DNA from: Yoonia sp. F2084L
GTDB taxonomy: Bacteria > Pseudomonadota > Alphaproteobacteria > Rhodobacterales > Rhodobacteraceae
DNA: 64,000 bases
Direction: 5' to 3'
Assembly (NCBI RefSeq): GCF_023015625.1
Contig: NZ_JALKAH010000005.1
Location: forward strand, 124,001-188,000
A model generated the notes under the pieces. That model saw nothing but the letters and a program-made list of their open reading frames with translations. It searched no databases and was not told where the DNA came from. The number at the start of each line of letters is the position of its first letter. Within the stretch, counting starts at the first letter, position 1. Made by a program: the position numbers and the translations under genes. Below are positions 19,819 to 28,001 of this stretch, piece after piece.

Positions 19819-20517
19819 CTATCCAGTCGTCGAAAAGCCAACAATTTCCTGTGCCAACAGGTCAATGGTATCCACAACATGTGCATCCGGGACCACGCTA
19901 TCTGCGATCAGCGAAAATTCGGAACAGGCAATGATCTGTAGCTCCACCGCAGCAGCATCAAGCACTGTCGAGGCGTCAAGTAGAGCGTTGCGTGCTCGCG
20001 GCTCTGGTCCTTGTGATTTAATCAAACTGATTGCAGCGAGCATGGCATCATCGCGGTTTGGCCAATGCACCGACATATCTTTTTTGCCCAGAGCCCGCTC
20101 AAATAAGCCGGCTTTCTGCACGGCAGGTGAGGCCAGTATGCCAACACGTCCACCCTCGCCAATAGCGCGCGCGGCATGGTTTGCAGCCAGATCAATCATG
20201 TTCAAGAAGGGAATGTCCACCGCGCCGGTTATCGCGTCTGCATAGTGGTGCGCCGTGTTGCAAGGCATTGCCAAGGCGGCGCAGCCCATGTGTTGCAACC
20301 TAATAGCCATCGCGGCCAGCGCAGGACCAGGGTCTTCGCCGGTGCCTTCAATCAAATGCGCGATGCGCGACGGCACCTGCGGATTCATGTCAATCATTAA
20401 GGGAACATGATCGCTGTCGTCATGCGCAGACACGGCATCAATGACTTTGCGTTGCAGCAATATGGTTGCTTCGGGCCCCATCCCGCCGAGTATACCGATT
20501 GTAAGGGGCCCGGGCAT
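19819..20517 (-). CDS. Aspartate/glutamate racemase family protein
   Basis: This 232-residue enzyme begins TIGILGGMGPEATILLQRKVIDA, the family start. Both catalytic cysteines are visible: MPCNTAHHYAD (about residue 85) and IIACSEFSLI (about 196). Members racemise acidic amino acids without a cofactor; related ones act on other substrates such as sulfonated or broad amino acids. It lies 3 bp after the PLP lyase gene on the same strand, so the two are probably co-translated. Racemising the lyase substrate, for example D-cysteate to L-cysteate, would be a sensible job, but this is inferred from context. Confidence 0.85.
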   Translation of the reverse strand: MPGPLTIGILGGMGPEATILLQRKVIDAVSAHDDSDHVPLMIDMNPQVPSRIAHLIEGTGEDPGPALAAMAIRLQHMGCAALAMPCNTAHHYADAITGAVDIPFLNMIDLAANHAARAIGEGGRVGILASPAVQKAGLFERALGKKDMSVHWPNRDDAMLAAISLIKSQGPEPRARNALLDASTVLDAAAVELQIIACSEFSLIADSVVPDAHVVDTIDLLAQEIVGFSTTG

Positions 20518-20520
20518 TTT

Positions 20521-21534
20521 CTAAACGTTCACCCAGCGGGAAGTGTGATCGAAGGCAAAGTCATAGCCACCCAACGCAGCCGCACCGCCTGTGTGCAAGA
20601 ACACCACACGCTCATCTTTGAACTCGCCTTTGCGTGCCAGATCAATCAGACCTGCGGCACCTTTGGCCGAGTAACAAGGGTCAAGCAGAATGCCTTCCAA
20701 TTCTGCAAACATCTTGATCGCTTCGATGCCGCTTTCGGTAGGAATGCCGTAGCCGTCGCCGACATAGTCGGTGTTCGCCATCACATCTTCACGCTTGACG
20801 ATGCCGGGGCAGCCCAGCATTTCAGCGGTCTTACAGGCCAGATCATAAACCATCTGTTCTTGCTTGGGCTGCGGTGCGCGGGTGCCAATGCCCAATACGG
20901 GGATTTGTGCGTTCATTGCGCACATGCCTGTGACCAGACCTGCCTGCGTACCTGAAGAGCCTGTCGCGTGTGTAAGCCGGTCGATTTTCATTCCCATGTC
21001 ATTGGCCTGCGAGACGAGCTCGAACGCGGCATTGACATAACCAAGCGCACCCGTCGGGTTCGAGCCACCACCGGGGATGACATAGACTGTGTGGCCCTTG
21101 GCGCGCATCTTCTCGGCGGCATTCTCCATTTCGCCGGGCATGTCATGGCCCGCAGGGAATTTCTCGGTCGTCGCACCATGTAGGTGATCCAACAACACGT
21201 TGCCGTTGGTGTTATAGTTGCCATCCTGATAACCAGTGCGATCTTCTAGCAGGATGTGGCATTTCAGGCCCAACTTTGCGGCAAAAGCGGCTGTTTGGCG
21301 ACCGTGGTTGGTTTGGGTCGCCCCTTGGGTCATGACCATGTCTGCGCCCTGTTCCAAGGCTTCGGCCATCAAGAATTCAAGCTTGCGGGTCTTATTACCG
21401 CCCGTTGACATGCCGGTGCAGTCATCACGTTTGATCCATAACTCGACACCAAGTTCCTTTGACAACCTTTCCATTGGCTCAAGTGGTGTAGAAAGATGGG
21501 CCAGATGAACGCGGGGAAAGCGAGCGAGGTGCAT
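20521..21534 (-). CDS. cuyA: PLP-dependent L-cysteate sulfo-lyase / D-cysteine desulfhydrase family (CuyA-like)
   Basis: This 337-residue enzyme is of the ACC deaminase/D-cysteine desulfhydrase family. The PLP lysine lies in [11 protein letters not shown] (about K48). The cofactor phosphate loop is [12 protein letters not shown], and the C-terminus has [16 protein letters not shown] and [12 protein letters not shown]. The start [24 protein letters not shown] and the [15 protein letters not shown] segment resemble my recollection of roseobacter CuyA more than E. coli DcyD (which has QSNHVRQTAA). CuyA cleaves L-cysteate to pyruvate, sulfite and ammonia. AGGAG precedes the ATG. The divergent LysR gene is its likely regulator. 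A D-cysteine desulfhydrase remains possible. Confidence 0.7.
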
Positions 21535-22564: not shown

Positions 22565-24052
22565 CTACTCTCGTTTACCTTGGACGATACGGTCCAAAAT
22601 CATCGCGCAAAACAGGATCGCAAAGCCTGCCAGGATACCTTGCCCGACAGAGGCATATTGCAAGGCTTCCAGAACGTCTTCGCCCAGTCCCTTTGCGCCG
22701 ATCAGGGATGCCACAACAACCATTGCAAGGCTCAGCATGATAGTTTGGTTTACACCCGCCAAAATGGATGGCGCAGCGAGGGGCAAATCAACCTTCGTCA
22801 ACAAGAACCACTTGGATGCGCCATATGCGATGGCGGCTTCACGGATGGTGTCAGGCACACCACGCAAACCAAGAACCGTAAGGCGCACCACGGGTGTGCC
22901 GCCAAAGATCATCGTGGTGACGACCGCCGCGGGTTTACCGGTGCCGAAAAACGCGATGACAGGGATCATGAAAACAAAGGCAGGCATGGTTTGCATAAAG
23001 TCCATCACAGGGCGCACGACCGCGTAAAATCGCGGACGACGCGCGCAGAATAGACCCACAGGAATACCAATCGCGATTGAGATACAGGCGGCTGTTCCCA
23101 AAAGTGCCAATGTGGTCATGGCTTTTTCCCAAAACCCCAAAAAGCCCATGTAGGCAAGGAATGCGACCGCAAATATCGCAGCGCGGCTGCCTGCTGAGAG
23201 CCATGTCAGCAAGGCGATGAAGCTGCCGATCACGGGCCACGGCGTGTCCACAAACAAGACCTCTAACGCGTCAAGAACGGTGCGAATGCCAAGCGTGATC
23301 AGCCGGAAGAACCACTCACCTGAATCGATGATGGCTGCGAAAAATGCTTCGACCCGGTCGATGGCACCAAGGCGAATTTCGGGTCGTGTGGGGAAATCCG
23401 TGAGCCAGTAGACCGCACCGGGAAAAGCATAATGTATCACGCAGGTGGCAATAACGAGCACGGGAAAGATCACGGCCACACCGGTGCGAAACGGGTTCAT
23501 GCCAGAGCTGACCGACGCATCCGACAACCACTCTGAATAACGCTTTTCCAATGCTGTGTTGGCTATGATGCCGGCGCAAATCTTGATTACGATCAGCGCG
23601 ACAAACCCGAAAAGGGCCACCCAGATCGCGCCGGATTCAAGTTCAGCGATCTCGACACGCACGTCAGAGATGGCGGTCTCAAGCGAGGTAATCGTGCGTT
23701 CAAACACTTCAACATTATCAGCGTCGTTTGCAATCGCGGCCTCTAGCTGTTCACGCCGCAAGGCCAACGTGCCTTCAATCTGCGCGATCTTGTCGCGTGC
23801 GGTGGCTCCAAGGTCTCCGAACAGTCCGCGCCCTAGCTGGATATAGGCAAAGGCTTCAAGGATCACAAAGGTCAGTGCCCAGTTCCAGATGCCCCGCATC
23901 CCGAACCAAATTGGTCCCAGCAGGGCGGCGACCCAATTGAAAGTCCAGGTGAATTTTGCGCTCGCCCCGATCTTTTGGAACTGATCATTGTAATACGCGC
24001 TGCTCGTGGTCACAAAATCTGTGAGGAGCTCATCTTTGGTCTTATCTGTCAT
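22565..24052 (-). CDS. ProW-type ABC permease with an N-terminal DUF2628-like and coiled-coil extension
   Basis: This 495-residue permease is about 200 residues longer than a plain ProW. Residues 30-75 (FTWTFNWVAALLGPIWFGMRG) look like a DUF2628-type membrane region. Residues 88-140 form a heptad-rich coiled coil (IAQIEGTLALRREQLEAAI), followed by two more membrane segments (about 143-165 and 191-212). The canonical permease occupies about 270-490, with the EAA loop REAAIAYGASKWFLLTKVDLPLAAPSI contacting the ATPase. It lies 3 bp after the ATPase gene. It probably imports a quaternary amine or similar zwitterion. Confidence 0.9.
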   Translation of the reverse strand: MTDKTKDELLTDFVTTSSAYYNDQFQKIGASAKFTWTFNWVAALLGPIWFGMRGIWNWALTFVILEAFAYIQLGRGLFGDLGATARDKIAQIEGTLALRREQLEAAIANDADNVEVFERTITSLETAISDVRVEIAELESGAIWVALFGFVALIVIKICAGIIANTALEKRYSEWLSDASVSSGMNPFRTGVAVIFPVLVIATCVIHYAFPGAVYWLTDFPTRPEIRLGAIDRVEAFFAAIIDSGEWFFRLITLGIRTVLDALEVLFVDTPWPVIGSFIALLTWLSAGSRAAIFAVAFLAYMGFLGFWEKAMTTLALLGTAACISIAIGIPVGLFCARRPRFYAVVRPVMDFMQTMPAFVFMIPVIAFFGTGKPAAVVTTMIFGGTPVVRLTVLGLRGVPDTIREAAIAYGASKWFLLTKVDLPLAAPSILAGVNQTIMLSLAMVVVASLIGAKGLGEDVLEALQYASVGQGILAGFAILFCAMILDRIVQGKRE

Positions 24053-24055
24053 GAC

Positions 24056-25114
24056 TCAAGAGGTCTCCGTTCCTTCGATCACCGTGCGCAGCAGGTCGGG
24101 TCGGGTGATGACCCCGATGCGCTGTCCGGTGGCGTTGATAATTGCGGCGGGTTGATCAGACGTGATCGCCGCCCCGATAAGATCACCCAAGTGAGCGTCT
24201 TGTGGAAACTCTTGTGCTGTCGCAGCAAGGGTCCCATTTGCGCTTTCGAATGCGGCCAAGGGCTGCATGACTGCATGGGCCCGCACAACTTTCAGGCGCG
24301 AAATACCGGCAACAAAATCCGAGACGTAATCATCCACCGGGTTCATCACGATATCTTCGGGCGTGCCTGTCTGGATCACCATACCGTCGCGCATGATCGC
24401 AATGCGATCCCCGATGCGTACGGCCTCATCCAGATCATGGGTGATGAAGACGGTCGTTTTGTTCATGTTCGCGGCCAGCCCCATAAACTCGCCCTGCAAC
24501 TGGCGGCGGATCAGCGGATCAAGCGCCGAAAATGGCTCGTCCATCAGCAGGATTTCAGGATCAGCGGCCAAGGCACGGGCAAGGCCAACCCGCTGCTGCA
24601 TACCGCCGGAAAGCTCATGCGCAAACTTGTTACCCCAGCCTGTCAAATCGACCATTTCGATGGTGCGTTCGGCCACTTCCATACGTTGGTTTTTCGAAAT
24701 ACCGCGAATTTCAAGCGGCAGCGCGACGTTATCCAGCACGGATCTGTGGGGCATCAACGCGAAGTTCTGGAACACCATTGCAATGTGTTCATTGCGGTAG
24801 CGGCGCAGGTCATCGGGCTGCATTGCCATGATGTCATTGCCGTTCACCGTGATGGTGCCCGATGTGGGCTCTAGCAATCGGTTGATATGGCGCACGAGCG
24901 TTGATTTGCCGGACCCTGACAGACCCATGACGCAAAAAATCTCGCCGGGTTTGATGTTCATGGTCGCGTCGGCCACGCCGACCACGCAATTGTATTTTTC
25001 AAGCACCTGTTTCTTGGTGATGCCGTTCGCTTTCACATCGGCCATTGCTTCGGGTGCGCGGTGACCAAAGATCTTCCAAACATTCGACAGTTCGATGGCG
25101 TAGTCTTCTGACAT
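24056..25114 (-). CDS. ProV-type ABC transporter ATPase with C-terminal CBS-like region
   Basis: This 352-residue ATPase drives the betaine-type importer. It has Walker A GLSGSGKST (about 64-72), signature LSGGMQQRVGLARAL, Walker B ILLMDEPFSALD and the switch His in FITHDLDEAV. After residue about 290 a short CBS-like segment follows (DAHLGDLIGAAITSDQPAAIINATGQRIGVITRPDLLRTV). In OpuA/ProV proteins this region senses ionic strength or nucleotides. The ATG at 25112-25114 is preceded by GGGGACC; in-frame upstream starts overlap the binding-protein gene and are rejected. It sits between the binding protein and permease genes. Confidence 0.92.
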   Translation of the reverse strand: MSEDYAIELSNVWKIFGHRAPEAMADVKANGITKKQVLEKYNCVVGVADATMNIKPGEIFCVMGLSGSGKSTLVRHINRLLEPTSGTITVNGNDIMAMQPDDLRRYRNEHIAMVFQNFALMPHRSVLDNVALPLEIRGISKNQRMEVAERTIEMVDLTGWGNKFAHELSGGMQQRVGLARALAADPEILLMDEPFSALDPLIRRQLQGEFMGLAANMNKTTVFITHDLDEAVRIGDRIAIMRDGMVIQTGTPEDIVMNPVDDYVSDFVAGISRLKVVRAHAVMQPLAAFESANGTLAATAQEFPQDAHLGDLIGAAITSDQPAAIINATGQRIGVITRPDLLRTVIEGTETS

Positions 25115-26953: not shown

Positions 26954-27110
26954 TTTAGGCGTCTCCAGTAGAATCCAGACCACATGCCGGACTTACCTTT
27001 TGAGCCTAGACGCGAAGAGCTTTGCCGCGCCAATTCATTTATTTCATCACGTTATTCCAAATTTGCATAACTTGAATTTGTTTCGTAGATTTCGATGGAA
27101 AGGCGATAAA

Positions 27111-28001
27111 ATGGATCTGAACTGGCTAAGAGATTTTATCTGCCTTGAGCGCACGCTTAGCTTTACGCGGGCCGCAGAAGAACGCAACATTACGCAGTCT
27201 GCGTTCAGTCGTCGTGTAAAATCGCTCGAAAACTGGATGGGAATTGCTCTCATTGACCGGGCAACCTACCCGGTTCAATTGTCACCGGCCGGAAAGCAGT
27301 TTTTGCCGGTGGCAAAGGCGATCATTGCTGATTTGATTGATGCACGCCAAGCCATCAGAGAGCAAGATCAAGGCGATAAGTCTTTCCAACGCTTTGCTGT
27401 TCTGCACACGATTTCAGTAAACTATCTGACCGTGCGACTTGAAGAACTGGAAGCCGAAATTGACGACCTAAAGGCGCGGGTCATTTCTGACAGCCTCAGC
27501 ACGTGTTGCCAGCTATTGGCGGAAGGCGGGTGCGATTTTCTGATTTGCTATCGCCATCCCGACGTACCTTTGATCCTGGACGAGGATCAGTTTTCACGAA
27601 TTGACCTTGGTTTTGAGAAATTAGTACCCTTTGCGCTTAAGAAAGCTGTTGCTTCAAACGGTTGGGTTTTGCCGGGGACAGCACATGCGCCCGTGCCATA
27701 TCTTGCCTATGAACGGTCTTCATTTTTGGGCACAGTTGTCGACCAAACAATTAGTAAGCAGCTGCTTCATCTAAACGTGCGCTACGTTGATGGGCTTGTC
27801 GAAGCCATTAAAAGACGAGTCCTTAACGGAAGCGGGATCGGCTGGCTTCCATATTCCGCCATCCATACCGAATTGGCGGCTGGAACTCTTCAACAAATGG
27901 GACCGCGAGAACTCGAAGCACAGATGACGCTCTCGGTGTTCTGTTCTCCTGAGCGGCTCGATGAAAAAGGGCTCGAAGTCTGGAAAAGGTTTGGTGGTTG
28001 A
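27111..28001 (+). CDS. LysR-family regulator, HypT-like subfamily (divergent from hydrolase-ABC operon)
   Basis: This 296-residue LTTR starts MDLNWLRDFICLERTLSFTRAAEERNITQSAFSRRVKSLENWMGIALIDR. It shares the TQSAFxRRV recognition-helix signature with the regulator at 21654. GGAAAGG precedes the ATG at 27111; the earlier in-frame start at 27000 lacks support. The 157-bp gap to the divergent hydrolase gene should hold the shared operator. Its inferred job is substrate-dependent control of the hydrolase-ABC operon. It is convergent with rplL. Confidence 0.9.
   Translation: MDLNWLRDFICLERTLSFTRAAEERNITQSAFSRRVKSLENWMGIALIDRATYPVQLSPAGKQFLPVAKAIIADLIDARQAIREQDQGDKSFQRFAVLHTISVNYLTVRLEELEAEIDDLKARVISDSLSTCCQLLAEGGCDFLICYRHPDVPLILDEDQFSRIDLGFEKLVPFALKKAVASNGWVLPGTAHAPVPYLAYERSSFLGTVVDQTISKQLLHLNVRYVDGLVEAIKRRVLNGSGIGWLPYSAIHTELAAGTLQQMGPRELEAQMTLSVFCSPERLDEKGLEVWKRFGG

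Follow-up and report, generated by a model that had tools for sequence, protein, structure and literature searches.

A long ABC importer permease with a conserved N-terminal module, encoded beside cuyA and cuyB in Yoonia sp. F2084L

The 64,000-nucleotide stretch of Yoonia sp. F2084L DNA analyzed here, referred to as the window, carries on its minus strand the gene for a long ABC permease (22565..24052; 495 aa from an ATG start) whose translation scores over the Pfam cut-offs for both BPD_transp_1 and DUF2628. The plus strand over 22565-24052 is interrupted by stops. Upstream of the permease, on the same strand, lie the genes for an ATPase (24056..25114; 352 aa from the ATG at 25114, a start inferred from relatives), an OpuAC-type substrate-binding protein (SBP; PF04069; 25179..26129, start likewise inferred from relatives, N-terminus signal-peptide-like) and, adjoining the SBP gene, an alpha/beta hydrolase (PF00561; 26180..26983, start codon unsure). 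Downstream, beyond a plus-strand LysR-type regulator gene (PF00126 and PF03466; 21654..22553) that is convergent with the permease gene and divergent from cuyA, the minus strand encodes the D-cysteate sulfo-lyase CuyA (20521..21534; NF052482, 520.4 bits against a cut-off of 450) and the cysteate racemase CuyB (19819..20517; NF052483, 267.7 bits against a cut-off of 190). A second LysR-type regulator gene (27111..28001, plus strand, PF00126 and PF03466, in an ORF that opens at 27000) is divergent from the importer genes.

The SBP, ATPase and permease make up an OpuA/ProU-like type I importer, presumably with the ATPase and permease as homodimers. Residues 224-495 of the permease (22568..23383, minus strand) form an OpuA/ProW-type core, with BPD_transp_1 at residues 329-486. 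This core superposes on the membrane chain of Lactococcus lactis OpuA (7ahc_A) with a Z of 30.4 and an rmsd of 2.3 over 270 of its 272 residues, at 35% identity (VIA-align), and by sequence the permease matches the same chain at 161.5 bits. The NCBIfam equivalogs for ProW and choline permease match the core only, and both stay below cut-off (199.9 of 439 and 247.9 of 363 bits). Because only residues 224-495 have a structural counterpart in the membrane domain of OpuA, residues 1-223 (23384..24052, minus strand) represent an added module, conserved across our alignments but without an alignment to OpuA-type permeases. The OpuA structures (7ahc/7ahd/7ahh), whose membrane chain fits the permease core and whose ATPase is alike over residues 8-288, gave no match to these 223 residues. 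Structure searches with the permease model brought up no fold match to the module either, but their hits were taken up by the core, so this lack of a match carries no weight. The extra helices that a preliminary description had noted as absent from plain ProW are thus borne out, as is the DUF2628-type patch it had placed in the N-terminus: the Pfam search finds DUF2628 at residues 31-73 (23834..23962, minus strand) with 29.8 bits against a gathering cut-off of 23, in a match that spans only profile positions 17-58 of 93.

We modeled the permease with AF2 on 54 rows, comprising 44 full-length and 10 plain permeases (mean pLDDT 76.3); this model supersedes a poor earlier one built on 10 rows (pLDDT 43.6). 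It places helices in the module at residues 56-77, 83-108, 114-140, 142-169 and 187-209. Three of these are predicted transmembrane helices on the minus strand: helix a (residues 56-77, 23822..23887), helix b (142-169, 23546..23629) and helix c (187-209, 23426..23494). Hydropathy backs helices b and c as membrane helices, and helix a, with moderate hydropathy, less strongly. Residues 83-140 (23633..23806, minus strand) form a helical hairpin between helices a and b. In type I importers the coupling loop is cytoplasmic, and counting helices backwards from this loop puts the hairpin, in the predicted topology, probably on the periplasmic side. The periplasmic N-tail of E. coli ProW agrees with this side, and net charge, taken over the 44 full-length rows, alternates from segment to segment (+1.0 for residues 1-38, -3.8 for the hairpin, +1.3 for loop 170-186 and -3.3 for residues 210-271).

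The hairpin is free of gaps and insertions in all 44 full-length rows of alignment A5, window included; in the more diverse alignment A6 its length is off by 1-2 residues in 4 of 17 rows (L125, L129, L130 and L131). Relative to the nearest relative, L035, dN/dS is 0.015 for the hairpin, where dS is saturated, and 0.012 for the core, while constraint is weaker elsewhere in the module (0.041 to 0.109); against L036 the hairpin dS was not computable. Among the 16 other rows of alignment A7, the module as a whole is 89% identical to that of the window in L035 and 26-59% identical in the remaining 15. The preliminary description had proposed a heptad-rich coiled coil at about residues 88-140. The position of the predicted helices, 83-108 and 114-140, comes close to that proposal, but the periodicity does so less well: a hydrophobic period of 3.5 over residues 83-140 is equalled in 36 of 2000 shuffles; of the two helices taken singly, the first has no such period (1217/2000) and the second only a weak one (145/2000). 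Support is therefore good for the term helical hairpin and moderate for the term heptad-rich coiled coil.

Since the predicted topology places the hairpin on the SBP side, a role in docking with the binding protein is possible. The module would most likely pack against the core and hold the hairpin near the SBP docking face. A built-in periplasmic hairpin that docks or gates the SBP would, to our knowledge, be a device not known from any other ABC importer. It is rather unlikely that the module serves only as an assembly or membrane-anchoring element with no share in docking or sensing, although much of it consists of the DUF2628-like segment and transmembrane helices and its sequence drifts in most rows; the low dN/dS of the hairpin and its predicted periplasmic side suit a contact role equally well.

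In its 353-residue translation, the ATPase matches 7ahc_D along residues 8-288 at 300.9 bits. Neither its tail nor that of L125 has a Pfam match at E<=10, while CBS appeared in the tails of two relatives, among four tails scanned, at 15.8 and 21.9 bits, below the cut-off of 24. A CBS-like tail, as described earlier, is thus echoed by sub-threshold single repeats in relatives and not by the window sequence, and the tail would represent at most one CBS-like repeat or remnant. A tandem CBS pair was sought and none was found; the tail is too short for the pair of OpuA, which, in the source text available for it, has tandem CBS in its ATPase and an SBP fused to its permease. In Shinella relatives the long permease is accompanied by a 282-aa ATPase whose frame ends soon after the nucleotide-binding domain, so that the tail is absent.

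These observations bear on the idea of osmoregulated import, with the coiled coil as a sensor of osmotic or ionic conditions and a second control exerted by the tail of the ATPase. The core and the ATPase are closest to OpuA, described as an osmoregulated importer in the excerpt available (PMC11065425). We nevertheless regard this function as very improbable, given the window tail, too short for tandem CBS and free of Pfam matches, the tail-less ATPases that partner long permeases in Shinella, the catabolic genes nearby and a separate plain ProW-like permease encoded in the same genome. Accordingly, neither the osmosensing coiled coil nor the control at two points suggested in the preliminary description held up, the former in view of its catabolic gene neighbors and the latter in view of the single CBS-like repeat at most and the Shinella pairings.

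The SBP matches PF04069 at 156.9 bits (cut-off 21.2). Numbered from the frame at window:25182-26144, in which Met is residue 6, it has an aromatic cage of W35, W85, W160, Y206 and Y208 that is kept in 17 of 17 sequences. Aromatic cages of this kind hold onium groups. Among distant members the cage is partly lost, with Tyr at position 35 in L127 and L130 and Trp160 missing in L128 and L131. The nearest solved relatives of the SBP include glycine-betaine, DMSP and TMAO binders. In the DMSP importer DmpXWV, which the available part of the source reports in Roseobacters and SAR11, the SBP is also of OpuAC type, and RnDmpX residues W35, W84, W152, Y200 and W202 align with the window cage (7yle; PMC10030565). 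The two proteins differ at RnDmpX Thr64 and Glu113, which are Asn64 and Gln114 in the window SBP. An identification of the importer as DmpXWV, considered because of this occurrence in Roseobacters and SAR11, was rejected, since the window SBP and 7yle are only remote relatives (profile E 1.2e-11).

Further SBP positions, among them N63, A163, R183 and W214, do not vary within six members of the clade (CuyA-linked and SAR11), whereas eight outsiders have other residues there (A8); in A9, L138 is an exception with Thr at 63 and R183 kept. N63 adjoins the residue aligned with RnDmpX Thr64. These clade-constant positions suggest, at the sequence level, that the SBPs of this clade may have a ligand of their own, to which we attach no name. 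Variants were also seen among the relatives. In two Neomegalonema MAGs (L053:4880-6148 and L060:4716-6125), the SBP is longer than the others and ends in a glycine-rich linker followed by a C-terminal tail of helical appearance. In SAR11, an SBP (L085:7860-8842) and, in a different genome, an ATPase (L074:8840-9972) are each split into two ORFs.

The SBP, ATPase and permease are also of the same superfamily as those of the TMAO importer TmoXWV (4xz6). In a same-genus control, L135, TmoW is a double permease of 664 aa that carries two BPD_transp_1 stretches but lacks DUF2628, and the match to the window permease starts only at residue 191. The L135 SBP matches TmoX 4xz6 at 1.4e-186, and the window SBP profile does so only at 1.3e-5. 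On this one same-genus control, we rejected an assignment of the window permease to the TmoW type. The preliminary description had considered that the extension might be universal in TmoW-like permeases; the TmoW of L135 is without it, so the module is not a TmoW trait but belongs to a different permease subfamily. The TmoX-type cluster of L135 (G035:C15:27500-36500) lies near genes for an oxidoreductase-like protein and for the beta subunit of a sulfopyruvate decarboxylase, which exceeds the TIGR03846 cut-off.

The module is inherited within a single permease subfamily, with members in SAR11, Roseobacters, Kiloniella, Rhizobiales and one Pseudomonas. It represents a genuine variant, of wide occurrence, on an importer type that is already known. 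Within the genus, the full module occurs in 10 of 36 genomes, own included. A contig scan returned 280 stretches with a module relative, and the best 80 of these comprise 64 from SAR11 and 16 others (Loktanella, Sulfitobacter, Litoreibacter, Kiloniella, Granulosicoccus, Neomegalonema, uncultured Rhodobacteraceae, Rhizobiaceae or Rhodobiaceae). Some contigs were retrieved twice (L045=L035, L047=L036, L048=L038 and L049=L037). An SBP gene accompanies the permease in 77 of these best 80 loci. Among evenly drawn genomes, at least 9 of 289 from the class (7 full, 2 partial) and at least 7 of 299 from the phylum (5 full, 2 partial) match at E<=1e-6; as up to about 10 first-look candidates were scored per genome, these carrier counts are minimum values. 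On plasmids, long relatives occur at 38-53% identity, and 15 of 671 matching records cover >=80% of the query. The 12 best plasmid matches of the window SBP all fall within those 15 records, so this permease and its SBP branch appear to travel together. DUF2628 matched 13 of 17 diverse long permeases at E<=1 and stayed below cut-off in all 5 further long permeases scanned, which makes the module more useful as a marker than the name given by Pfam. In the literature found, the titles and opening lines of abstracts describe neither the permease module nor a link between the importer and CuyA, and those on DUF2628 concern other subjects only.

We then considered the linkage of the long permease to cuyA and cuyB. 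In the genus, CuyA exceeds its cut-off in 10 of 10 long-permease genomes versus 1 of 26 others (G029), with a Fisher p of 4e-8 that ignores shared ancestry. Across the 289 genomes of the class sample it does so in 6 of 7 full-module carriers versus 20 of 282 others, again ignoring shared ancestry, and in 6 of 9 carriers when the partial matches G060 and G106 are counted; the full-module carrier without CuyA over cut-off, G228, is 64% complete. Among control genomes the count was 1 of 14. Locally, a CuyA relative lies inside the locus stretch in 15 of 22 distinct non-SAR11 loci (the 16 from the best 80 of 280, L039-L043 and the window). The one in L060 is weak (41% identity), with the genome's only hit at 320.7 bits, below cut-off. 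Three of the 7 loci without CuyA sit on short contigs (L053, L056 and L059), and two of the 7, L046 and L056, have CuyA over cut-off elsewhere in the genome, as do G021 (L043) and G023 (L049). The NCBIfam cut-off for CuyA was exceeded in 7 of 7 proteins run, from L036, L038, L039-L042 and the R. pomeroyi control. CuyB over cut-off is rarer, at 4 of 60 relatives, own included. The CuyB-positive G029 has no long permease, and in G021 cuyA and cuyB are far from the long permease. The cuyA genes of G220 and G313 lie on a different contig from the long permease. G211 carries, on another contig, a second long permease.

Linkage is also seen with divergent binding proteins. In L136 (G063), the genes run on one strand in the order cuyA, a DegT-type aminotransferase-like gene (L136:9053-10423; PF01041, 152.1 bits), cuyB, SBP, ATPase and permease. 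L137 has the order cuyB-SBP-ATPase-permease, and its cuyA lies about 5 kb ahead of this row. Both enzymes exceed their cut-offs in both loci, and the two SBPs are only 34-38% identical to that of the window. A quick tree was made from 37 permeases; it leaves out L136-L140, labels L060 as without CuyA and has some joins flagged for long branches. On it, the label of adjacent CuyA needs 5 changes, at least 4 of them by starred branches. The CuyA linkage is thus not a single frozen inheritance. Separately, the CuyA of L124 (L124:5578-6666) is 91% identical to that of the window, while the L124 permease belongs to another subclade; this mismatch suggests transfer or re-association of cuyA.

As CuyA and CuyB, both over their cut-offs, adjoin the importer and the linkage recurs in the genus, in the class and in L136 and L137, we favor cysteate or a close amino-sulfonate as the candidate substrate, with a confidence that is about evenly balanced. 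The importer would bring this compound into the cell, where CuyB would interconvert D- and L-cysteate and CuyA would split D-cysteate into pyruvate, ammonia and sulfite. A supply of D-cysteate to CuyA by CuyB is described in the accessible text of PMC11382572.

Other carriers of the long permease have different neighbors. None of the 64 SAR11 loci among the best 80 of 280 has a CuyA relative in the stretch, and none of 8 SAR11 genomes searched (0.9-1.3 Mb) has CuyA at E<=1e-30. A relative of the alpha/beta hydrolase lies near the importer in 44 of these 64 loci; SAR11 hydrolases such as L057:7002-7772 and L106:12088-12846 are about 38-45% identical to that of the window. In the 10 plasmid neighborhoods inspected, out of the 15 long-permease records, the importer is found with arginase/agmatinase (L125, L129 and L134), trimethylamine methyltransferase (L127 and L131), aminomethyltransferase (L126), ETF and folate genes (L128), an aminotransferase and an M24 peptidase (L132) or a flavin oxidoreductase (L130 and L133). 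These varied neighbors show that the long-permease family is substrate-diverse. In the Shinella plasmids L130 and L133 the oxidoreductase is of the LLM class, and YeeE/YedE and sulfurtransferase genes lie nearby, perhaps for sulfur metabolism. R. pomeroyi has a plasmid cuyA near a TRAP transporter, and its long-permease importer is beside arginase genes.

The absence of CuyA from the SAR11 loci and genomes searched and the other catabolic genes beside the plasmid relatives count against a cysteate importer, as do the genomes with cuyA on another contig (G220 and G313) and the presence of CuyA without a long permease in 20 of 282 class genomes. The cage typical of onium binders, read from the SBP sequence, also argues against cysteate and keeps an onium ligand alive. 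The importer could, tentatively, take up a quaternary ammonium, sulfonium or guanidinium-type compound, as an osmolyte or a nutrient, with CuyA and CuyB adjoining it through co-regulation or through a breakdown route via a beta-substituted D-alanine. This would be consistent with the invariance of the cage, the ligands of the nearest solved SBP relatives, the SAR11 carriers without CuyA, and the arginase/agmatinase and trimethylamine methyltransferase genes beside relatives. However, the linkage to cuyA/cuyB is seen repeatedly, in distinct subclades whose SBPs have diverged, and a scan of eight window proteins gave no match to a betaine catabolic family. In the comparison of six members with eight outsiders, N63, A163 and R183 are specific to the clade, though L138 has Thr63. 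In addition, SPOA0231 did not bind DMSP, according to the portion of PMC10030565 available. From gene type and place, we infer that L125 holds SPOA0231.

The cysteate reading must also be set against the transporters already described in R. pomeroyi. The available text of PMC10130141 presents cuyTUVW (SPO3040-3043) as a mutant-tested cysteate transporter that, among Roseobacters, is unique or almost unique to this species. SPO2658-2661, with two permeases, is listed as a cysteate ABC set in the excerpt of PMC9038784, and SPO2657, beside it, is cuyA2 in that of PMC9870897. By these descriptions both are four-gene systems, unlike the window importer, and that the mutant-tested transporter of R. 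pomeroyi is of the four-gene kind counts against cysteate here. A still broader proposal, in which the long permease would mark a widespread marine importer of cysteate (amino-sulfonate) in cuyAB bacteria and SAR11 alike, with a periplasmic hairpin that docks or gates the SBP, seems to us doubtful.

Cysteate is a phytoplankton metabolite, as stated in the available text of PMC10130141, and within the literature found, in the form accessible, a cysteate importer is reported only in R. pomeroyi. If the favored reading is true, the locus described here would provide a candidate cysteate importer that can be recognized in sequence by its long permease, would explain a route by which the pathway could be supplied in other cuyAB bacteria, and would direct attention to a SAR11 transporter. 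The permease module itself would offer a new test object for the encounter between a binding protein and its ABC importer.
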